DNA of 64,000 bases, taken from the NCBI GenBank assembly GCA_947561715.1, contig OX387204.1, forward strand, positions 13,831,001 through 13,895,000. The letters are read 5' to 3'. The notes beneath the pieces are model-generated. The model ran no database searches. It saw nothing but the letters and a program-made list of their open reading frames with translations, and was not told where the DNA came from. The stretch comes from Ascidia mentula. Lineage: Eukaryota; Chordata; Ascidiacea; Phlebobranchia; Ascidiidae. A program made the position numbers and the translations under genes. Positions 14,435 to 55,546 of this stretch are shown here, in pieces. Every line of letters starts with the position of its first letter. The stretch's first letter is position 1.

Positions 14435-14884
14435 ATCCATTGTTAACGTTGTGTTATCAGTTTTAAAGTTGGAAGTAGTAGCTTGGTGACCAATATAATT
14501 CCCACATCATGCATTGTGGACACATACCTTAAAAAGAGTATGCCAGCAAAGTATGTGTGTCCACACCAGTTCCTTAATGATAAACACTGGTATGTAGTTA
14601 CTTATGACACACTCTTGTGGTACATATCATCGCCTAACATCTAAAGGTTGTCGAACCATCAATCCAAAATTGGTTTTTATTTGTAAACAGCTGTGTCAAA
14701 CCACACACTGCCTGCAAGCGTTAATAACTCTAACACTATATATATTTGTGTCAGCCCCCTGGCTAATTACACAACATTAAACAACACCAACTACTGGCCA
14801 GGAATAATACAGCCAAAAAAACAAATTTTACGTTAGCCATACGGAATTTCGTACACAAAATGCGTTACCGTGCGTAAATTAAAT
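14435..14884. other. Intergenic sequence before the foldback element, with one hairpin
   Basis: No gene is seen. At 14515-14527 and 14551-14565 lies an imperfect inverted repeat (TGTGGACACATAC against GTATGTGTGTCCACA) with a 23-nt loop. The rest is AT-rich and featureless. Confidence 0.4.
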
Positions 14885-15109
14885 ACTACTGTCATTCTGG
14901 CAGAATCCAAAATTATTGTTTCGCAAAATGCGTTCCGCATCAATGAGCAGCAATGCACAAGAAGGTTTAACTTGTACAAAAGAGTTTATTGTTGGTATAT
15001 AACATACCAGTAAGCATTATTTTGCAAAACATTTCACTTCTTAATCATTTCGTGCCAATACCTCTGTAAAAGTCCCAAGGTTATATTCAAAATAACCTGA
15101 AATACGGAT

Positions 15110-17205
15110 CTTATTGCTCATTTTTACATTGCTGGTGACGTCACTTTCAATCAAATGCCGAACCACTTTCCGCTTCATAGGATTTTATTTAAATCTCAGT
15201 ATCTGTCAAGGATAGAGTCCAGAATAGCGTGAAAGTAATAAAAATCGGTAGAGATCCCACGTATTCCATCAGAATGACCTGAAACACCAGTGTTTTTGCG
15301 CTTTTTTGCATTGCCGGTGACGTCACATTCAATCAAGTGCCAAACCACTTTCCGCTTCATAGGATTTTATTTAAATCTCAGTATCTGTCAAGGATGGAAT
15401 GCAGAATAGCGTGAAAGTAATAAAAATCGGTAGAGATCCCACGTATTCCATCAGAATGACCTGAAACACCAGTGTTTTTGCGCTTTTTTGCATTGCCGGT
15501 GACGTCACTTTCAATCAAGTGCCAAACCACTTTCCGCTTCATAGGATTTTATTTAAATCTCAGTATCTGTCAAGGATAGAGTGCAGAATAGCGTGAAAGT
15601 AATAAAAATCGGTAGAGATCCCACGTATTCCATCAGAATGACCTGAAACACGTGTGTTTTTGCGCTTTTTTGCATTACCGGTGACGTTACATTCAATCAA
15701 GTGCCAAACCACTTTCCGCTTCATAGGATTTTTTTTAAATCTCAGTATCTGTCAAAGATAGAGTGCAGAATAGCGTAAAAGTAATAAAAATCGGTAGAGA
15801 TCCCACGTATTCCATCAGAATGACCTGAAACACGTGTGTTTTTGCGCTTTTTTGCATTGTCGGTGACGTCACATTCAATCAAGTGCCAAACCACTTTCCG
15901 CTTCATAGGATTTTTTTTAAATCTCAGTATCTGTCAAGGATAGAGTGAAGAATAGCGTGAAAGTAATAACAATTGGTAGAGATCCCACGTATTCCATCAG
16001 AATGACCTGAAACACGGGTGTTTTTGCGCTTTTTTGCATTGCCGGTGACGTCACTTTCAATCAAGTGCCAAAACACTTTCCGCTTCATAGGATTTTTTTT
16101 AAATCTCAGTATCTGTCAAGGATAAAGTGCAGAATAGCGTGAAAGTAATAAACATCGGTAGAGATCCCACGTATTCCATCAGAATGACCTGAAACACGGG
16201 TGATTTTTCTTCGCTTTTTTGCATTGCCGGTGACGTCACTTTCAATCAAGTGCCAAAACACTTTCCGCTTCATAGGATTTTTTTTAAATCTCAGTATCTG
16301 TCAAGGATAAAGTGCAGAATAGCGTGAAAGTAATAAACATCGGTAGAGATCCCACGTATTCCATCAGAATGACCTGAAACACGGGTGATTTTTTTTCGCT
16401 TTTTTGCATTGCCGGTGACGTCACATTCAATCAAGTGCCAAACCACTTTCCGCTTCATAGGATTTTTTCTAAATCTCAGTATCTGTCAAGGATAAAGTGC
16501 AGAATAGCGTGAAAGTAATAACAATTGGTAGAGATCCCACGTATTCCATCAGAATGACCTGAAACACGGGTGTTTTTGCGCTTTTTTGCATTGCCGGTGA
16601 CGTCACTTTCAATCAAGTGCCAAAACACTTTCCGCTTCATAGGATTTTTTTTAAATCTCAGTATCTGTCAAGGATAAAGTGCAGAATAGCGTGAAAGTAA
16701 TAAACATCGGTAGAGATCCCACGTATTCCATCAGAATGACCTGAAACACCAGTGTTTTTGCGCTTTTTTGCATTGCCGGTGACGTCACATTCAATCAAGT
16801 GCCAAACCACTTTCCGCTTCATAGGATTTTTTTTAAATCTCAGTATCTGTCAAGGATAGAGTGAAGAATAGCGTAAAAGTAATAAAAATCGGTAGAGATC
16901 TCACGTATTCCATCAGAATAACCTGAAACACGTGTGTTTTTGCGCTTTTTTGCATTGCCGGTGACGTCACTTTCAATTAAGTGCCAAACCACTTTCCGCT
17001 TCATAGGATTTTTTTTAAATCTCAGTATCTGTCAAGGATGGAGTGCAGAATAGCGTGAAAGTAATAAAAATCGGTAGAGATCCCACGTATTCCATCAGAA
17101 TGACCTAAAACACGTGTGTTTTTTCGCTTTTTTGCATTGCCGGTGACGTCACTTTCAATCAAGTGCCAAACCACTTTCCGCTTCATAGGATTTTTTTAAA
17201 TCTCT
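15110..17205 (+). repeat. Left satellite array: 12 units of 182-185 bp
   Basis: CGCTTCATAGGATT recurs at 15171, 15353, 15535, 15717, 15899, 16081, 16266, 16451, 16633, 16815, 16997 and 17179. Spacing is 182 bp except for two 185-bp steps. Each unit holds GGTGACGTCAC (one unit has a single change), CCACTTTCCG, TCAGTATCTGTCAA and TCGGTAGAGATC. The CACNNGTG position varies among units: CACGTG, CACCAGTG or CACGGGTG. Confidence 0.95.
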
Positions 17206-17756
17206 ATATTTGTCCAGAATTTATGTCGTCGCAAAATCTAATGGAGTGGCACACTCGATTTTTCACACAATCTCATACATTTTCCCTTCTAATCACAATG
17301 TGTCACACTTATAAACTTGCAAAGAACGTTTTATTGTGCAATATGCGTCCAATTCTTTTTCCTTCTTTTTGTAGTGAATACAAATGACCGTAAAGGTAAT
17401 GCTTGTTAAAATAAATATTTTGATTTAACATTTTCAAATGAAATGATATTTACTCTTAAAAAATGTTAAATTTGTGCATGATGTTGATGTATCACAGGTG
17501 AAAGTCGTCTTTGCTTGTTACACAAACATATAAGAAACACAATTTTCATGGTGGCCACTAAATCTAAGAAACAAATTGGGTAAACAGGCACAATTAAAGA
17601 AAAACATTGCCCACTTTTTTTCGGACAGTTTTAGATTATCAGGAGTTTTGATAACTGCCACATCTTTGACAATTGAGTTCATGAACATTTCTGCATCATC
17701 TGTGGTTAGTACCTACTGGTAACAGGATCAAAGATTGCTGAAATTTTCATGAGTCG

Positions 17757-18810
17757 GAAACGTTCGCTATTACTGTACATGCACCTTAATAGGATACATT
17801 TTATGGCCAACCGTGTAATAAGTCAAACTCATGTACGCGTACTTAATTAACGAACATGCAACTTATTAACGTAACTAATTAACGTGCGCGCATGTTAAGT
17901 TGGCCGATAGTGTCATAATTCTATGTAAAATTACATGTACTGTCATCAGCTTATGGGCGTCGATATGCTCTTGTTTTCTGCACCTTTGCAAATATCACTC
18001 ATGTATTCATCTAGTGGCAGGTAGCGTCAGATCTATGTCAAATCCTCAAATGTTATCGCAACTGCTTAAAAATCTAAGTGTTTCATCACAGGCCCAAATA
18101 TACCATGGCCCCGCACAAATTTGTAAGTACCGGAAATGTATTTTTCACATATTTATCCTTTGTCAAATTTGTCCTCTTTTTCCAGAATTAAACATTTGAA
18201 CAGCGAAATTGCGCTGTATTCTCAGCTAACCTTGTACTTTTACGTACGCATATGTCTTTACAAATTATTTTGATTTTAAGTTATAGTAAACATGTACATA
18301 CTTTGTTTTAATGCGCATGGGCTGCCCACATTCAAAAGAATTTTACAGCGCTTGCAATGCCACACAATAATTTTACAAAGTTTGCATCTTTACGTCGCAA
18401 TTTAATCGTGTTAAGCTTGCCAAAAAGCAGAGTTGATTGCAGTAAAACCTCACGTTTTAGGTTCTCTTTGGGGTTGCGATACATCAAAGTAAACGGTGCG
18501 AACCACAGATATCCACAAGATGGATACATGAGTGATATTTGCAAAGTAAAAGCAGAAAACAAGGGCATATCGACTCCCATAAGCTTTGACTTGAAGCTAA
18601 CTATTTGTTGTTTGAAATGAAAATATACGACGATAGTACAAGTAATTTTACCTAAGATTATGACACTGTCGGCCAACTTAACATGTTACTAAGTTACAAG
18701 CACCTTAATAAGTTGCATGTTCGTTAACTAGGTACGCGTACATCAGTTTGACTTATGACGCGGTTGGCCATGAAATATATCCTGTTAAGGTACATGTACA
18801 CTAATATCGA
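17757..18810. mobile_element. Nested inverted-repeat element inside the foldback core
   Basis: Sequence at about 17757-18100 returns inverted at about 18470-18810. Shared blocks include CATGTTAAGTTGGCCGA plus TGTCATAAT, CTTATTAACG-type strings, GTACGCGTAC and ATGTACATG-rich runs. Identity between the arms looks about 75-80 percent. It is probably an older foldback or MITE that was carried in or inserted into the core. Confidence 0.65.
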
Positions 18811-18879
18811 ACGTGTTGCTTACTAACGCGCGCGTGCCTTATTATTCCACATGATGTCGCTCTTATTTGGAATTTGACA

Positions 18880-19035
18880 CTGTTGGCCAGGCTTTAGATA
18901 TCGCGCACGTTCATTATTACGACACACGCACGTTATCTAAGGTACGCGTACAATATGGCGAATTATGACACCGATGTCCCAAACAACATAACGAACGTGC
19001 TCGTTATTTCAAGCCTGGCCAACAGTATGTCCAAA
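18880..19035. mobile_element. Small MITE-like element in the foldback core
   Basis: The ends are inverted: GACACTGTTGGCCAGGCTT near 18885 and AAGCCTGGCCAACAGT near 19010. The terminal GACACTGTTGGCCA resembles the arm motif of the neighbouring nested element, suggesting one family. Confidence 0.55.
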
Positions 19036-19912
19036 ACAACATAATATACGTTTAGGGTTTGAATGTGAAGTTGCAACTTGTCACGATGATTATGCTGGCT
19101 AATTGCCTTTGAATTGTCGTTTACCAGTGCACTTGGCTAAGATGCAGGCAGTTGGGTATAATTGTTTATTGATGAAATGTAACTAAATAGCATAAAATAA
19201 AATGGAATATATTTAGAATCAAATAGAACGGTCAGAAAGGGCGAAAAGCGTTACCGTATAAACATATAGTCTCGTGATATGCGATATTGTGAGAGAAAGA
19301 CAGTGCTGGGCTCGTAAATAAAATTTGGGAAAGAAAGCCCCAGCCCATTACGTAGGGTGAAGTATCCCTGTCACAAACAAACTCCCCTAACGATGGAAAG
19401 CGATGACAAATTTTTTATCAATACAGCTTCCAGTTCTGACATTGTCCCAAATGCGGCTTGGTGAGTGTCAATGCAAATTCTTATCAACGCGATTGCGAGT
19501 ACATTTTCACCCATATGTCAAAGGCGGTTTGCATCACACGATCGCAATTTAAATCGAATGACGCTACAAAGTACTTAATCCTGATATTGGGATGTACTTC
19601 AATATGTAAAAAAAAATGTTTGAAAAATAATGTATGTTCACAGTACGTTTTACACGCAAAATTGACGATAAAGGTGTGCGCAATGCTAATAATAGGCCTA
19701 ATGGCGACCATGCACATTCGCAATACAAAAAGGAAAACAAACGAGAGAAAAAATCATTTGTTCAAACCTTACTGGATGATGGAACCAAGCTACCCTGGCA
19801 GGCTGTCGACCGATTACCGTATCTATAGTGCTGAGTAAAAGGTTTGATACTTCCTGGACCTATTTTCAAATGTTTATCACATTGCTTATATGTGTTTTGC
19901 ATTCCACGGAAA

Positions 19913-19939
19913 CTGATGACGCCCTTTACAAGGCGAAAC
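19913..19939 (+). other. Hammerhead-like hairpin motif
   Basis: CTGATGA is followed by GCC, an 8-nt loop, GGC and GAAAC. This is the order of conserved elements in the hammerhead ribozyme core with a 3-bp stem II, but an extra C sits after CTGATGA. Flanking helices I and III were not evident, so activity is not claimed. Confidence 0.35.
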
Positions 19940-20528
19940 ATAAATCTAAGCAACCTTCGTATTAAAAGGAAGTCAACATAAATGGTTACATGTACATATT
20001 CGCAAGGGTTAGGCGTGTTTATGAAAAGACTAACAAACGCGTTTGGTATGTGTATCAACATACTTTATAAAGCGACGTAAACCGAAATTAAACATGCACA
20101 ATATCGAATCAAGTCAACCAGCATGGGCAATTGGCATATTTAATCAAGAAGTGTTGCAAAGGATGTTAATGTCGGTATGGAAGTAAGGTTAGAATCCGAC
20201 GATTTCGCCACTACCATTCGTCAATACAAACTCCCAATCGGATAATATTAAGCACCTCAAAGGCTATCGCATAACGAGACAGGATCGTCACAATGAGAAA
20301 ACCCTCATTTGGCAGCTATGGTATTTATAGCATGCAATGTAAACATTTCTGTGTTGTTTGATTACAATGGTGGATATCGTAAATGCAAATTTTGCCAGGC
20401 AATTTGTGCACGAAACACTGCATAGGCCAAAATCTGACTTCTCTAATCGTTTCGATCATGTACAGCTCATCTGGTGGAGCGTTGGGCCTCATTAAAAATC
20501 GCAAAAAAGTTGAAAAGCCCTGGTTTGA

Positions 20529-23230
20529 AGTCATTCTGATGGAAAACGTGGGATCTCTACCGATTTTTATTACTTTCACGCTATTCTTCACTCTATCCTT
20601 GACAGATACTGAGATTTAAATAAAATCCTATGAAGCGGAAAGTGGTTTGGCACTTGATTGAAAGTGACGTCACCAGCAATGCAAAAAAGCGCAAAAACAC
20701 ACGTGTTTTAGGTCATTCTGATGGAATACGTGGGATCTCTACCGATTTTTATTACTTTCACGCTATTCTTCACTCTATCCTTGACAGATACTGAGATTTA
20801 AATAAAATCCTATGAAGCGGAAAGTGGTTTAGCACTTGATTGAAAGTGACGTCACCAGCAATGCAAAAAAGCGCAAAAACACACGTGTTTTAGGTCATTC
20901 TGATGGAATACGTGGGATCTCTACCGATTTTTATTACTTTCACGCTATTCTGCACTCCATCCTTGACAGATACTGAGATTTAAATAAAATCCTATGAAGC
21001 GGAAAGTGGTTTGGCACTTGATTGAATGTGACGTCACCGGCAATGCAAAAAAGCGCAAAAACACTGGTGTTTCAGGTCATTCTGATGGACTACGTGGGAT
21101 CTCTACCGATTTTTATTACTTTCACGCTATTCTGGACTCTATCCTTGACAGATACTGAGATTTAAATAAAATCCTATGAAGCGGAAAGTGGTTTGGCACT
21201 TGATTGAAAGTGACGTCACCAGCAATGCAAAAAAGCGCAAAAACACACGTGTTTTAGGTCATTCTGATGGAATACGTGCGATCTCTACCGATTTTTGTTA
21301 CTTTCACGCTATTCTGCACTCTATCCTTGACAGATACTGAGATTTTAAAAAAATCCTATGAAGCGGAAAGTGGTTTGGCACTTGATTGAAAGTGACGTCA
21401 CCGGCAATGCAAAAAAGCGAAAAAACACTGGTGTTTCAGGTCATTCTGATGGAATACGTGGGATCTCTACCGATTTTTATTACTTTCACGCTATTCTGCA
21501 CTCTATCCTTGACAGATACTGAGATTTAAATAAAATCCTATGAAGCGGAAAGTGGTTTGGCACTTGATTGAAAGTGACGTCACCAGCAATGCAAAAAAGC
21601 GCAAAAACACACGTGTTTTAGGTCATTCTGATGGAATACGTGGGATCTCTACCGATTTTTATTACTTTCACGCTATTCTTCACTCTATCCTTGACAGATA
21701 CTGAGATTTAAAAAAAATCCTATGAAGCGGAAAGTGGTTTGGCACTTGATTGAATGTGACGTCACCGGCAATGCAAAAAAGCGCAAAAACACTGGTGTTT
21801 CAGGTCATTCTGATGGAATACGTGGGATCTCTACCGATTTTTATTACTTTCACGCTATTCTGCACTCCATCCTTGACAGATACTGAGATTTAAATAAAAT
21901 CCTATGAAGCGGAAAGTGGTTTGGCACTTGATTGAATGTGACGTCACCGGCAATGCAAAAAAGCGCAAAAACACACGTGTTTTAGGTCATTCTGATGGAA
22001 TACGTGGGATCTCTACCGATTTTTATTACTTTCACGCTATTCTGCACTTTATCCTTGACAGATACTGAGATTTAAATAAAATCCTATGAAGCGGAAAGTG
22101 GTTTGGCACTTGATTGAAAGTGACGTCACCGGCAATGCAAAAAAGCGCAAAAACACACGTGTTTTAGGTCATTCTGATGGAATACGTGGGATCTCTACCG
22201 ATTTTTATTACTTTCACGCTATTCTGCACTCTATCCTTGACAGATACTGAGATTTAAATAAAATCCTATGAAGCGGAAAGTGGTTTGGCACTTGATTGAA
22301 AGTGACGTCACCGGCAATGCAAAAAAGCGCAAAAACACTGGTGTTTCAGGTCATTCTGATGGAATACGTGGGATCTCTACCGATTTTTATTACTTTCACG
22401 CTATTCTGCACTCCATCCTTGACAGATACTGAGATTTGAATAAAATCCTATGAAGCGGAAAGTGGTTTGGCACTTGATTGAATGTGACGTCACCGGCAAT
22501 GCAAAAAAGCGCAAAAACACACGTGTTTTAGGTCATTCTGATGGAATACGTGGGATCTCTACCAATTTTTGTTACTTTCACGCTATTCTGCACTTTATCC
22601 TTGACAGATACTGAGATTTAAATAAAATCCTATGAAGCGGAAAGTGGTTTGGCACTTGATTGAATGTGACGTCACCAGCAATGCAAAAAAGCGCAAAAAC
22701 ACACGTGTTTTAGGTCATTCTGATGGAATACGTGGGATCTCTACCGATTTTTGTTACTTTCACGCTATTCTGCACTCTATCCTTGACAGATACTAAGATT
22801 TAAAAAAAATCCTATGAAGCGGAAAGTGGTTTGGCACTTGATTGAAAGTGACGTCACCGGCAATGCAAAAAAGCGCAAAAACACTGGTGTTTCAGGTCAT
22901 TCTGATGGAATACGTGGGATCTCTACCGATTTTTATTACTTTCACGCTATTCTGCACTCCATCCTTGACAGATACTGAGATTTAAATAAAATCCTATGAA
23001 GCGGAAAGTGGTTTGGCACTTGATTGAATGTGACGTCACCAGCAATGCAAAAAAGCGCAAAAACACTGGTGTTTCAGGTCATTCTGATGGAATACGTGGG
23101 ATCTCTACCGATTTTTATTACTTTCACGCTATTCTGGACTCTATCCTTGACAGATACTGAGATTTAAATAAAATCCTATGAAGCGGAAAGTGGTTCAGCA
23201 TTTGATTGAATGTGACGTCACCGGCAATGC
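20529..23230 (-). repeat. Right satellite array: 15 inverted units of 182 bp
   Basis: TGAAGCGGAAAGTGG recurs every 182 bp exactly at 20631, 20813, 20995, 21177, 21359, 21541, 21723, 21905, 22087, 22269, 22451, 22633, 22815, 22997 and 23179. It is the reverse complement of the left array unit. Every unit carries TGACGTCA. Two subtypes (CACGTG and CACTGGTG) are interleaved. The CACGGGTG subtype of the left arm is absent, so the arms were homogenised separately. Confidence 0.95.
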
Positions 23231-23594
23231 AAAAATAAGCAAAAAGATCCGTATTTCAGGTTATTTTGAATATAAACTTGGGACTTCTACAGAGGTATTG
23301 GTACGAAATGATTAAGAAGTGAAATATTTTGCAAAATAATGCTTACTGGTATGATATATACCAACAATAAACTCTTTTGTACAAGTTAAACCTTCTTGTG
23401 CAATGCTGCTCATTGATGCGGAACGCATTTTGCGAAACAATAATTTTGGATTCTGCCAGAATGACAATAGTAATTAAATGCATGCGAAAACAGCCCCACA
23501 TTTTATGCTTGGCTGAGCATGTAAAAAAGGCACTTATTTCTGCAACAAAACCTCAGATTTCTGTAATTGTATCAGTGCGAATTTATTGGCGAGT

Positions 23595-23770
23595 GAATTA
23601 TTTTGCAAAATTTTCCAACCAGGTGTAATATATTATAAACCCAGCAAACATTCGATTGTATTAGTTATACTGTAGGGTATAGTTTGGTTAAACCTTCTTG
23701 TGAAATGCTACTCAATAAAGCGGAACACATTTTATGAAAAAAAATTTGATTCTTTCAGATTGATGTTTGT
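23595..23770 (+). repeat. Older diverged copy of the foldback element terminus
   Basis: Blocks such as TTAAACCTTCTTGTG, AATGCTACTCAATAAAGCGG and ATTATTTTGCAAAAT repeat, in the same orientation and order, the unique right end at about 23320-23470. They show roughly 25 percent change. The younger element therefore sits next to, or within, an older relative. Confidence 0.6.
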
Positions 23771-29800: not shown

Positions 29801-32800
29801 TTTTTGAAGAAATTAATTTGATGTGGAAATAATGTATTAGTGCAACGGTAAGATATATATATACGTGGGCCGCACTGGTTTAGCGTGCTTATACACTGGG
29901 TTTTTTTTTCGCTAAAAAATTTCTGTCAAATGACCGAAGTGCCAGCAAAAATTTAGGACATTTTCAATTTATTTTGGTCATTTACGTCATAATACTTTCG
30001 TTCGCAAAAATGTAAGCAATTTGAATAATCTACCAGCCAATTTCCTTTGGGACATTGTGTCCGAAACGGCTTTTATTTTTTGTGACGTTTCTAAAAAAAA
30101 TGGGTCAATGACAGACAAATGACACAAAAAAAACCCAGCTTATACAGTATGCGTGAATGTACAGGGCGCATGCAGCTGATCCGAACCACCACAAACCTTG
30201 TCTTTTCCTTGCACTCGAATTTGCTCGAAGCCGAAAACTGACGCAGGCTTTCAAGAAGGTGAGTTGTTGCTCATACAATTGTATGATGGAAGTTACATGC
30301 GGCACAGATGGCTGCCAACAAATTTACGAACCTCCACCTCATCGTGCTCGTATTAGGCGAAACGTGTTTATTGCCATGTTGGTCGCTTTTTTCGACATGT
30401 TTGCATTAAAATGCCCATAATTACCTGGAACATATTAACTTCCAAGGTAAACAAACCTTAGTTTTGAGATAAAGGTATTTATTTTTGTAGCCCCGTGAAT
30501 ATTTAAGCCAGTGACTTTGCCTTTTTGTAGTCATGTACCCATTATTTTAGGGAAACAAATAGATAAATGTTCGTGACATAAAAAGAAATGCAACATATCA
30601 GTAACTTTACTGCAAATAAAAGAAAATAAATGACAAAATTTATCGCAAAATTATGTTAATACAACCAAACTGGGAAAATAGAAAATAAATGTTAATTTTA
30701 ATCAGAATTTTACTCTTGTCCATACGGACACCCTATGGAAGCATCGAACGGTCACTCGAACCCGATACGTTGACAACTACTGATTCATATTCAGAAAAAA
30801 ATTCTTGCAGGTTCATCAAGCTCTTGATCTGAACCCCGAAGATCCTCAATGTCTTCACCTTCTTGCTTTACTCCAAACATCGCGAAAACAATACGGGGAG
30901 GCGAAAAACACTCTCCGATCCACCCTCCTCATGTACCCTGGCAATTTGAGGTATGTAGACTAAACATGGGGAAAATTTGGCCCATTGGGTTTTAATTCTT
31001 GCCCGCCAAACGCCGGGGTAATTTATAACACTGGTCAAAGTGTTCATGCTGCAGTAAAACGTAATTTTAGTGATCACTTTTTTCTTTTCTGTGCAACTTG
31101 TAAACGTCAATTATTGTCAATGGGTTAGTCCATAAACTGTAGTTTAAACACTGTTTGTCCACTTTATGCTCGCACTGCCCATTGGCCTATCTTTCAACTT
31201 TTGAGTAGTTTATGGCCCGTGCTGTGTCAAAAAGTGCCAATCCCTACCTAATACAGACCATACCATGACCACGTGTGTGTCCTAAATGAACTTGTTTCGT
31301 TCTGCAGTTTGCTGGCAACCAAATGTAAGCTTGAATTACACATGGGGGAAAATGACGAGGCTTTGAGAACATGCGACGAACTCCTAAATCTCTGGTCAGA
31401 AAAACCCAAGACCGACGTGTGAGTGTACATTGGTGCTTTCCATACACTTATACAGACGCGTCGTTTTTTAACGTCGTTTCAAAAACTTTTAGAATCAACA
31501 AAATCGATTCAGATACACATTTTATAAACTCCAATGTGATTTGTTTCAACTTAAATTTAACGGTTATTTTTAAAAGGTATTAGTTAAATTCGCCCAAACC
31601 TTTTTATAATACGTGTCCCGAAAACTACTGCAAAGTGTGTTTGGTTCTGGCTGAGTAATCCCATGTGTGTTGTTCTAAGGTTCGAGGCGACCGCCGATAG
31701 AACGACCAGCGATAGACGGAGCTTAGCGAATCAATCCATCGGCACGGAGCTAGAAACCGGTGTGTACTAATCCTAAACTTTTATCTCCAATAAATAACCC
31801 TACACTTTGGTGAATGCCGCGACATTTTATCACGAGAACCTATCATAGGAATTATCATCATAAGAGACACTACTTCTAACTGTTTCTGTAGGTTCAACGT
31901 TCGCTAATATTTCGCGGTGGGAGCAAGCAGCATCTGATCTCGGCTCTTACGCTGATCTTCGACCTCGGTTGGTGTTACGTGTGGACAAATGTGTTATTTA
32001 ACATATATTATAACGCAAAACCTAAGTATATGCAGTAAAGAAGTACTGACTGCTCGCCCTTCTCTTTAACACCACGCTCTGCAAAGAAAAACTGTTAGGC
32101 AGTCTGATTTAAACCGGACGTAACAAATAAATCTGTTCCGCAGGGTGGCGCTGTTGTGGTCGGTCCACAGTGAAGTTTGGCTTCAGGTTGCAGAAGTTTA
32201 TTTGGCGTTGGATCGATACGATGAAGCGGAGATGTGTGTAGCGGAGGCAAACCAACTATACCCGCTCTCGCCCAACGTGGTTTACATGGTAGGTTGTAAA
32301 TGTATACATTCTAGTGAAGACATGGGCAAACTCTGGACCATTGACTCTTGCAAACTGGCCAGCCAGGGTTTGGTATGAATTAATGTCACTCTTCATACTG
32401 CAGTTTAATGTAATTTAGGTGGGAATTTTTTTCAGTTGCAAGTTTTTAAACTTTGAACATTGTAAATATATTTAACCATATAGCGCAGAAGTAATTCCAT
32501 GCTTTCGCATAGCAAGGCAGGATCGCCCCACTGCACAGCTCTAATATTCTGATCATAAGGTTCACAGGCTTCGCAGCCAAGGCATTGCAGCCCAGCTGGA
32601 TCAGCCACTTTTCCCGACAAGTCGGAGCGAGATCTGAAAAATCAAGCTCCCGGTGAGGTTTGAACTCACGACCATGGGCTAACCAGGCCCAACGCTCTAC
32701 CAACTGAGCTACAGGAGCTCAGTGGCTTCACAGGGTATATTGTGCAAGCGCACAACTTGTCAGGCGACCTTCACATTTCAAACCTCACCGGGAGCTTGAT

Positions 32801-44400: not shown

Positions 44401-46325
44401 TCATTTTCAAAATATTCCCTCTAAAAAGCTAGATAATCGGTTGCTATAAAGGTATATACGGTTTAATGATGAACTGTTTCCTCGAAGAACGTGACTGAGG
44501 TCTTAAAAACTGTGTTCAACTTTTCCCAAATGCGGCCAGACTAATTGCACTTAGCAAGATGCACCACCAAACATCTCAAAAGCAATCCAGCAGCTTAAGT
44601 TTCCCTTATGTCAGTGAATAGAAGGTTTGGAAAGGCTTGCACATGCTTTAAATTTTCTATAGGCCGGTTATGGGTGCTAACAATTTGTATGGCAGCACAA
44701 TGTAAACTGAGCCGTCAGTTTTTCCGAACTCGTTTCCTCCTTGCAGCTCGTAAGTCAGCGCATGGATGACTGTATGTATTTGCATTATACGCAGCACAAG
44801 CTACTGTATAATTGAAGGCTGAACCATCAACAAAACGCAACAGCACAACTCGGCAAGCCTATATGTTCTTCTATTTGGAAATTATACCCTGATATCCGAA
44901 TATCGAAAAAGAGAGAAAAAACGTTTTACAGCATTTTGTAAAATTGAGTTTTTTTACCCTTACAGCATTTAACCGTAGGATTTCTGAGCCTTTTCATTTG
45001 TTCAAATATCTATAACTTCGTTTGTTAAGTTCGTAAATCAGATTCAAGACCCTTACAATAGAAATGGACGAATGAGTTTTCCACAAAGAGTTGAATTTGA
45101 TATACAATTTGCACGTCTGTGTTCCCTGTCTGAACTTGGAGCGTGTTTCACTTGTGCACGCTAGGCGTTAAAGCCTTCTGTTCAAATTTGCTTAGCAGAG
45201 ATTTTAGCGCACGCGAACCTGCCAATCATTCTCCCACTTGCGACTATCGTTACTTCTTCGGTTGGTTGCTTCGTATATAGAAAGGCTCTTCTGGCAATTC
45301 ATAAGCGCTGATTTTGTCCAACATTTTGGTTGTTTTGTAAATTATCAAATTGCCCTCAAAACTAATGCAATATTTTTGTTAATTAAATCGGACATTTTGT
45401 ACAGAAAAAGACATTTACTTAAATGATCAGAGTTATCTTGATACAAACAAAGACTTATATGGATAAATTGTATCTTTTCAGTGGCGTCCGCTCGCTCATC
45501 AAGAGCACTACGTCGTCAATAGCACCACCGGACACGGAGTGTTTCGAGCATGCCAACGACGAATACAAACTTCTGCGCAAACCTACTTTCGAGAAGAAGC
45601 CACACGGAAAAGTGGAAAACGGTCGGAAGAGCAAAGTGTGTAATTCGTCTCTGAAACGCGCCAGGAGCCTTCAAATACATTCATCAGCACTATCTGCTGC
45701 CAAGGTTGAAGATAAAGAAAAGCAGGTGATTCGTCGACCTGGAGACTGCCTTCGCGACTCCACTGAACAACAGGCATCCAATGGAAGCAGGTTATCCTCG
45801 GGAGAGTCATTTAAAGGCCGGAGAACCCTCTCCACCAGCAACAACGGGGATGAGGAGGGACTTCAGAGGAGCGTAAGCTTCTCTTCCTCCTTCCGCTCGC
45901 GGGAGCACTCTTTCCGGAAGTCCCTCAAACGAGGTTCATCTAATCGCGCCTCCATGCGAATCCTCCGCGAACGGCGGGTCACTGTGCTCCTAAAGTTCAT
46001 CCTAATGTGTTTCATCATACTGTGGCTGCCCTACAGTCTCATAGTAGTGATCACAGCCTTGTGCCGCAATTGCCTCGTCCCGGCCTTTGCGTGGAACCTT
46101 GGCTACTGGCTCTGCTACCTTAATAGCACTGTCAACCCCATTTGCTACGGTCTGTGTAACGAGAACTTCCGTCGGACATTTAAGGCCATTCTCACAACCC
46201 GCTGGTGGACGAAGGAAGCACGCAAGTATTTAAGAACCGGACGAGTGGCTGGAAAACGAAATCGGTCACCGAGCAGAGAAACGTCAGAAATCAAGCGAAG
46301 GATCACGGAGATGTATCGAAAATGA
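41444..46325 (+). CDS. Muscarinic-type acetylcholine receptor (class A GPCR)
   Basis: This is a seven-helix plasma-membrane receptor, expected to bind acetylcholine and couple to G proteins. Its exons are 41444-41865, 42165-42458 and 45482-46325, giving 519 codons plus stop. The N-terminus has NYS and NGS glycosylation sites. TM3 [15 protein letters not shown] holds the amine-binding Asp123, and DRY (140-142) spans the first intron. The second loop CYIPFLED and TM5 IAFYFP are muscarinic-like. TM7 [16 protein letters not shown] is almost the muscarinic consensus, with NPICY. The third loop (about residues 228-400, Ser/Arg-rich) carries the 3 kb second intron. In TM6, WLPYS (Trp420) has Ser424 where muscarinic receptors have Asn 6.52. 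H3 histamine receptors are the alternative, but TM5 and TM7 favour muscarinic. The subtype is not assignable. Confidence 0.9.
42459..45481 (+). other. Large intron 2 of the muscarinic-type receptor
   Basis: This 3.0 kb intron splits the third cytoplasmic loop. Apart from a degenerate SINE (44240-44385) I see no gene. The open frame at 42805-43179 has no motif. Confidence 0.6.
44240..44385 (-). mobile_element. Degenerate tRNA-derived SINE
   Basis: On the minus strand TTGGCGCACTTGCG leads to a B-box-like CGTGAGTTCTTACTCG and GCTGGGAGC, followed by a T-rich and ACTACAACACC-type body. It looks like an old tRNA-headed SINE. The A box is poor. Confidence 0.4.

Positions 46326-50446: not shown

Positions 50447-55546
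<5,100 letters not shown>

Follow-up and report, generated by a model that had tools for sequence, protein, structure and literature searches.

A foldback-type DNA transposon with satellite-length inverted arms in the tunicate Ascidia mentula, and larger gene-carrying relatives as its candidate autonomous partners

The DNA analyzed here is a stretch of 64,000 nucleotides from the tunicate Ascidia mentula (assembly GCA_947561715.1, contig OX387204.1, positions 13,831,001 to 13,895,000 of the forward strand), referred to as the window and numbered from its first letter. It holds, at 14885-23471, an element of 8,587 bp lying between exact copies of the 8-bp sequence AATTAAAT, and our analysis confirmed that this is a real mobile element with fixed ends and with sister copies at unrelated sites. 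The left end has the sequence ACTACTGTCATTCTGG and the right end, read inward, ACTATTGTCATTCTGG; the 16-base end pattern occurs once per strand in the whole window, and the left and right termini are 96.5% identical over 200 bp. Two arrays of a 182-bp unit make up most of the arms, and Tandem Repeats Finder gave them opposite consensus orientations. An earlier note on this stretch had placed both ends, the AATTAAAT duplications and the opposed arrays at these positions, and all of them were found there, the arrays comprising 11.6 and 14.9 copies of the unit; the inverted outer stretches that the note had put at about 220 bp are likewise present, with precise lengths of 202 and 236 bp. The parts of the element are as follows.

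14877..14884, no strand: left 8-bp target-site duplication AATTAAAT, by sequence identity to the right copy
14885..15086, plus strand: left terminal inverted repeat, outer non-array part, beginning ACTACTGTCATTCTGGCAGA, 202 bp
15087..17204, plus strand: left arm array, 182-bp unit in 11.6 copies (Tandem Repeats Finder, 95% match)
17221..20500, no strand: non-coding core of 3.28 kb, common to other copies in either orientation
17760..17761, no strand: inferred internal-deletion junction at core position 540/541, where the 22-kb coding copies have about 10.1 kb extra; 2-bp GT overlap
17760..18017, plus strand: inner inverted repeat arm, part of a separate multi-copy repeat X (73% inverted match to 18513-18814)
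18513..18814, minus strand: partner arm of inner inverted repeat X
20523..23235, minus strand: right arm array, 182-bp unit in 14.9 copies (Tandem Repeats Finder, 96% match)
23236..23471, minus strand: right terminal inverted repeat, outer non-array part, finishing ACAATAGT, 236 bp
23472..23479, no strand: right 8-bp target-site duplication AATTAAAT, by sequence identity to the left copy

The longest stop-to-stop frame in the core of the window element is 132 amino acids, and a Pfam search with this frame returned weak matches only, the best at E 0.041 and none above cut-off. Repeat X (17760-18814), with inverted arms of its own, has copies at many sites outside the transposon family. About 210 bp past the right end, at 23687-23763, lie 77 bp with 80% identity to the terminal repeat of the element; they are probably what remains of an old end of a related kind.

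The genome searched for relatives was that of Ascidia mentula, 195.8 Mb in 79 contigs (labelled C1, C2 and so on). With 40 of 132 candidates scored, the terminal 221 bp had at least 41 matches in the genome and is therefore not restricted to the window locus, and a 20-bp end pattern allowing up to two mismatches gave 97 + 93 = 190 matches compared with 1 + 0 for a reversed control pattern. Independent insertions had been expected to end at the same base, each with its own 8-bp duplication, and this was borne out: an exact 8-bp duplication was present at 17 of 25 end pairs compared with 0 of 600 mispaired combinations, and agreement at 6 or more of the 8 bp at 20 of 25 compared with 8 of 600. 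These 25 pairs, in all of which both terminal bases were placed, comprise 17 from the fetched loci and the window and eight from larger elements described below. Left out of the count were L016, where the matches end short of the terminal base, eight loci with a single end in the fetched piece (L025, L027, L028, L030, L031, L032, L034 and L035) and weak extra end-like matches in L012, L032 and at window 23687-23763. The duplication is 8 and not 9 bp long, the ninth flanking base differing in the window copy and in the other copies whose flanks were read. No paralogous empty site was found in the assembly, the joined flanks of the window copy matching only their own two places and, weakly and over part of their length, two others (72-75% over some 100-125 bp). 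The proposal of a foldback transposon in a tunicate host thus held, with a family of such elements in the Ascidia mentula genome.

Some of the loci share flanks. L027 and L028 have common flanks and are 99% identical over 5.3 kb, element included; L030 and L031 carry the same flanking sequence, inverted, 1.5 Mb apart; and L024 and L035 have the right flank in common. These pairs are segmental duplications or rearrangements involving the elements. Open frames matching Pao peptidase, DUF1759 or reverse transcriptase at L033:3947-8728 and L034:5574-8716 are retrotransposons adjoining element ends.

The anatomy of the family was compared across 15 elements (E01 to E15), all of which (15/15) have an array period of 181-184 bp, with 3.6-27 copies per arm as determined by Tandem Repeats Finder. 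The core is nearly whole in ten of them, whole with a 2.7-kb insertion in E11, present in part in E07, E08 and E14, and absent in E15, which has almost no middle part between its arms; relative to the assembly, the core lies either way round. Nine cores showed a mean divergence of 1.29% (0.65-1.77%), with 137 singleton compared with 20 shared two-state variable sites, a star-like variation that points to a single burst. At six loci (L023, L024, L026, L029, L033 and L038) the end type of the window element, A, is paired with another type, B, with which it shares about 76-78% identity, and A and B ends are also found on both of the 22-kb copies described below; the symmetric A-A form appears to be derived. 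Left and right termini were 0.958 identical within an element and 0.961 between elements (11 elements, leaving out E09 and E13-E15), and since termini are not more alike within than between elements there is no signal of arm-to-arm conversion. The insertion in E11 (loci L019 and L020; C1:1931976-1944571) measures 2,693 bp, and has 807-bp direct repeats at its ends that are 99.9% identical. It resembles a non-coding element bounded by long direct repeats, although 215 bp of core sequence are also duplicated exactly on either side of it.

The prediction that some copies would have a transposase-coding core found its counterpart in elements of 15-22 kb carrying a giant open reading frame (ORF), for which the role of transposase would be an interpretation, the window copy itself being non-coding. 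Eight such elements have the family ends (0-1 mismatch in 20 bp), exact 8-bp duplications in eight of eight cases, and a giant-protein gene inside, the protein being 79-100% identical across the eight end pairs over the 1,166-amino-acid piece searched. Two are 22-kb copies, C2:8728268-8750140 and C73:9080907-9102415, with differing flanks and the duplications ATGTGAAT and GTTTGGTT; their right ends have one mismatch each and their right arms are made of 182-bp units. In both, about 10.1 kb interrupts the core at 540/541 and holds an open frame of 2,596 amino acids. The other six were found as end pairs 15-22 kb apart with the same gene at 79-84% protein identity and exact duplications in all six; frames of 1,562-2,519 amino acids are present in five of them and the protein is broken in the sixth (C2:15107864-15129491). 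A further match to the gene, with a 2,332-amino-acid frame, lies at C71:5414371 and is not counted among the eight. We regard these gene-carrying elements as candidate autonomous partners of the window copy. Upstream of the giant ORF, at L042:1139-1925, two short frames resemble GDSL/SGNH hydrolases below the Pfam cut-off and are a lead only.

Comparison of the two kinds of core bears on how the non-coding form came about. In the coding copy, the homology of the inner inverted repeat continues past the junction (core 1442-1760 against L042 1-305; 305 bp, 81%), and in the non-coding core it is cut at the junction, with a 2-bp GT overlap. Because of this difference, we infer that the non-coding core is a deletion product of a related ancestor that lost its coding part. 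The window-type core is 86-92% identical to that of the 22-kb copies, so that ancestor was neither the C2 nor the C73 copy itself. The window copy, which is non-coding, is probably related to the coding form through an internal deletion.

From the N to the C terminus, the giant protein contains a 17-residue tandem repeat and a hydrophobic stretch (both read by eye), a PHD finger (PF00628; E 1.1e-5, 25.8 bits against a Pfam cut-off of 24), a cysteine/histidine-rich stretch (by eye), a putative catalytic domain, a possible Ulp1-like stretch and a UCH domain (PF00443; Pfam E 1.1e-7). The Ulp1-like stretch, with a DSSCG motif, was read by eye only and is a lead, there being no such match in Pfam. 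In an alignment (A1) of nine sequences, eight of them relatives 28-86% identical to the first, D67, D141, C187, H190 and E400 of the putative catalytic domain are invariant. An order of D, D, C/H and E residues is seen in MULE-type transposases, among them one MULE of the Ascidia mentula genome (translation of L063: D38, D107-108, C/H at about 128-131, E at about 220). For L037 and L062, the only pair with unsaturated synonymous divergence (dS), the ratio of nonsynonymous to synonymous divergence (dN/dS) over 566 codons of the domain was 0.21 (NG86) and 0.25 (YN00), which indicates purifying selection in the one pair tested; three other codon comparisons were not used, two having NG86 ratios of 0.114 and 0.087 at saturated dS of 2.7 and 3.6 and one being without dS. 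Searched against solved structures, the catalytic profile had chance-like matches only, and two long pieces of the giant protein recovered the PHD and UCH domains along with some weak matches. In a phage search, the domain had a single match, at E 0.6, of the kind expected by chance. Neither a THAP domain nor a P-type transposase was found in Pfam scans of three pieces covering the giant ORF or of A1.

The 182-bp arrays were examined for turnover and for occurrence elsewhere. Between the C2 and C73 copies, no base differs in the 4,264 bp of ORF and core compared, but their right arrays consist of 29 and 27 unit positions, respectively, with the inner half reordered; the 14 outermost unit variants are equal between the two, the first excepted, and even the best alignment of the arrays with a single gap has 67 mismatches in 5,061 bp. 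In other arms, duplicated blocks of several units can be made out. The arms can therefore change faster than point mutations accrue. Mean identities among 318 units were 0.958 for adjacent and 0.957 for non-adjacent units of the same arm, 0.953 for units of the other arm and 0.950 for units of other elements, so concerted evolution within arms is weak. The unit had 536 matches in the genome compared with 0 for a control, 489 of them within the window and the loci around element ends (L009-L038); the matches listed occupy 100 places, all on C1 and, compared by eye, all within five elements, 47 of the 536 being unplaced. No match to the unit was found in the window outside the element, and the unit seems to be confined to the elements. 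Among its most conserved stretches is GGTGACGTCAC (for example at window 15316-15326), containing the palindrome TGACGTCA, which we take to be an ATF/CREB-type site.

In structure, the family falls in the foldback class, having long inverted ends of tandem repeats around a middle part, and fixed ends with duplications at independent insertions. Sea-urchin TU and Drosophila FB elements also have inverted ends of tandem repeats, with units shorter than the Ascidia unit. The closest described kind is Rehavkus, which is MULE-related and has been described in Repbase. Rehavkus-1_TC of Tribolium is 9.5 kb long and carries a 164-bp repeat, mostly in 5 and 8 copies, within its inverted termini (PMC10218199), and Rehavkus elements are described with a PHD finger, one ORF and 9-bp duplications (PMC6446971). 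Rehavkus and the Ascidia family thus share a satellite-length repeat in the inverted termini (164 and 182 bp) and a PHD finger. They differ in the duplication (9 bp compared with 8 bp here), in the length of coding copies (9.5 kb in Rehavkus-1_TC compared with 15-22 kb), in the number of repeat copies (mostly 5 and 8 in Rehavkus-1_TC compared with 3.6-27 per arm) and in their hosts, arthropods and annelids compared with a tunicate; the Ascidia protein also has a ubiquitin-protease-like domain, a feature not seen in the cited descriptions of Rehavkus. As the 9-bp duplication was not found and Rehavkus was compared by description only, we call the element Rehavkus-like without assigning it to that group. 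For chordates, the evidence of MULEs is described as limited, one Ciona sequence excepted, with Tunicata among the hosts of the Phantom group (PMC6446971).

Three other systems show parts of the same pattern. Tetris, a foldback element of Drosophila virilis, is like the window copy non-autonomous, with tandem repeats of about 220 bp in its terminal inverted repeats (TIRs) and duplications of 8-10 bp (PMC4079207); its authors found no autonomous copy, whereas a candidate exists in Ascidia mentula, and Tetris repeats also form free satellite arrays, none of which has been seen so far for the Ascidia unit. Galileo, of the P superfamily in Drosophila, likewise has long repetitive TIRs with unequal repeat numbers at the two ends (PMC3573991), but its TIRs reach about 1.25 kb, its repeat region of about 210 bp comes in two or three copies, and its transposase has a THAP domain; neither that domain nor a P-type transposase was found in the giant protein. 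The Galileo repeats hold transposase-binding sites, which is a precedent for such sites in repeats (PMC3688188). Tm1, a Mutator/Foldback element of root-knot nematodes, resembles the Ascidia family in having coding and non-coding copies with common foldback ends (PMC3169594) and differs in its repeats of a motif of about 14 bp, its 9-bp duplication and its 496-amino-acid transposase with a Pfam MULE match. The earlier note had raised the possibility of an undescribed tunicate family: we found no description of the family in the titles and abstracts of open-licence literature on such elements and transposases, on transposable elements of Ascidia mentula and on sea-squirt genomes, although a Repbase entry may exist, and the architecture has precedents in Tetris (about 220 bp; PMC4079207) and Rehavkus-1_TC (164 bp; PMC10218199). 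Overall, the interpretation given in the note is supported.

Taken together, we read the window element as a non-autonomous foldback-type DNA transposon of Ascidia mentula that is helped by the giant-protein elements and has fast-changing arrays, and we give this reading a probability of roughly 0.85. The giant protein, which reaches about 2,600 residues, would act as the transposase, binding the ends of coding and non-coding copies alike, and hence the window copy in trans; it would excise the elements and insert them at new sites through cuts staggered by 8 bp. The repeat arrays may supply many binding or pairing sites for it. The lineage of the window copy would have lost about 10 kb of coding DNA from a coding ancestor and then spread in one burst, and the arrays, to judge from the one sister pair, would change by whole units that are added, removed or rearranged through slippage or unequal exchange. 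A more specific proposal, which we hold only tentatively and consider rather unlikely, is that the elements are a chordate lineage with a catalytic domain unmatched by Pfam and a giant ORF combining a PHD finger with one or two ubiquitin/SUMO-protease-like domains, whose arms would be adjustable loading arrays rebuilt at or soon after each move.

Several points weigh against the favoured reading. Contrary to the expectation for independent insertions, 5 of the 25 end pairs (L011, L014, L023, L024 and L033) have no convincing duplication. By the count over the whole genome, too few exact 182-bp units are left for the six other large elements to have many of them, so satellite arms are established within the A/B subfamily alone. 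Array turnover was seen in one sister pair, the only one compared, and some of the difference could be due to misassembly inside the arrays. A terminal-like motif in each 182-bp unit, GTCATTCTG (9/9), was considered as a repeated transposase site and rejected; dinucleotide shuffles equalled its score in 172 of 2000 trials, and a binding-site role of the array is therefore not claimed. The putative DDE domain is read from its invariant residues, and three of the nine A1 sequences (L059-L061) are near-duplicates of one another. A transposase match was found in Pfam for 0 of 9 A1 members, and NCBIfam gave none; in particular, MULE PF10551 matched 0 of 9, the genome's 49 matches to it (48 over cut-off) all lying elsewhere, and KDZ PF18758 matched 0 of 9, with all six genome matches elsewhere. 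Alignment of the domain by hhalign with two single MULE relatives of Ascidia mentula detected no similarity, at low power.

These negative results lend themselves to a different account, in which another transposase, for example an ordinary MULE of Ascidia mentula, moves the element and the giant ORF is a captured passenger gene. The ORF has no match to a transposase model, it bears the non-transposase domains PHD and UCH, and MULE-type genes do exist in the genome. The same protein, however, lies inside eight separate end pairs (broken in one), it shows purifying selection in the tested pair together with the invariant D, D, C/H and E set, and none of the listed MULE or KDZ matches falls inside those eight elements, and we consider a passenger gene improbable. 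Whether the element belongs to Rehavkus proper, a MULE-related group marked by a PHD finger and a minisatellite near the end, or only looks like it is in our view an even question: repeat arms and a PHD finger are both present, but Rehavkus is listed with 9-bp duplications, its reported hosts are arthropods and annelids, and the likeness was judged from descriptions and not from sequences. Two other placements were tried. Membership of KDZ (Kyakuja-Dileera-Zisupton) was first suggested by the 8-bp duplication, a trait of Zisupton and a Dileera lineage (PMC12730594), together with the PHD finger, and was dropped, as PF18758 matches only elsewhere in the genome; MULE membership drew a negative result with PF10551 and a second with hhalign, the latter of little power.

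The two remaining alternatives concern the arms. Long inverted tandem arrays are in general hard to assemble, and the arms could in principle be a mis-join or a local palindromic rearrangement, but the published assembly kaAscMent1.1 (197.0 Mb, 95 scaffolds) is built from 74-fold HiFi long reads and Hi-C (PMC11109543), which makes a mis-join unlikely, and 17 end pairs have exact duplications of their own and the arm anatomy recurs in 15 of 15 elements. For the family as a whole such an artefact is already contradicted, and we consider its chance negligible. That the 182-bp unit is a genomic satellite captured by or seeded from the element, also occurring in free arrays, has a parallel in Tetris, which according to its description seeded free satellite arrays in Drosophila virilis (PMC4079207), but with 489 of 536 unit matches in the window and the element-end loci and the 100 listed C1 places all inside five elements, it appears very improbable. 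The non-autonomous foldback transposon with giant-protein helpers accordingly remains our preferred reading.

Elsewhere in the window, an exon-like frame matching rhodopsin-type receptors and one matching Lyase_1 lie at 45423-46325 and 52911-53393, respectively, and a tRNA gene lies at 32645-32718 on the minus strand.

Where satellite-length arms have been described in foldback elements, the copies at hand can all be non-autonomous, as in the description of Tetris (PMC4079207), which limits what they can tell about the purpose of the arms and the identity of the mover. In Ascidia mentula, coding and non-coding copies with the same ends occur in one long-read, chromosome-scale genome, including two insertions that are identical over the part of the coding region compared. 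This system makes it possible to address the mover protein, the array as a binding platform, and the speed at which satellites change within transposons. The little-studied Rehavkus-like elements gain from it a chordate host and a combination of chromatin-reader and protease domains, and it makes a poorly known class of transposons accessible together with its likely helper.

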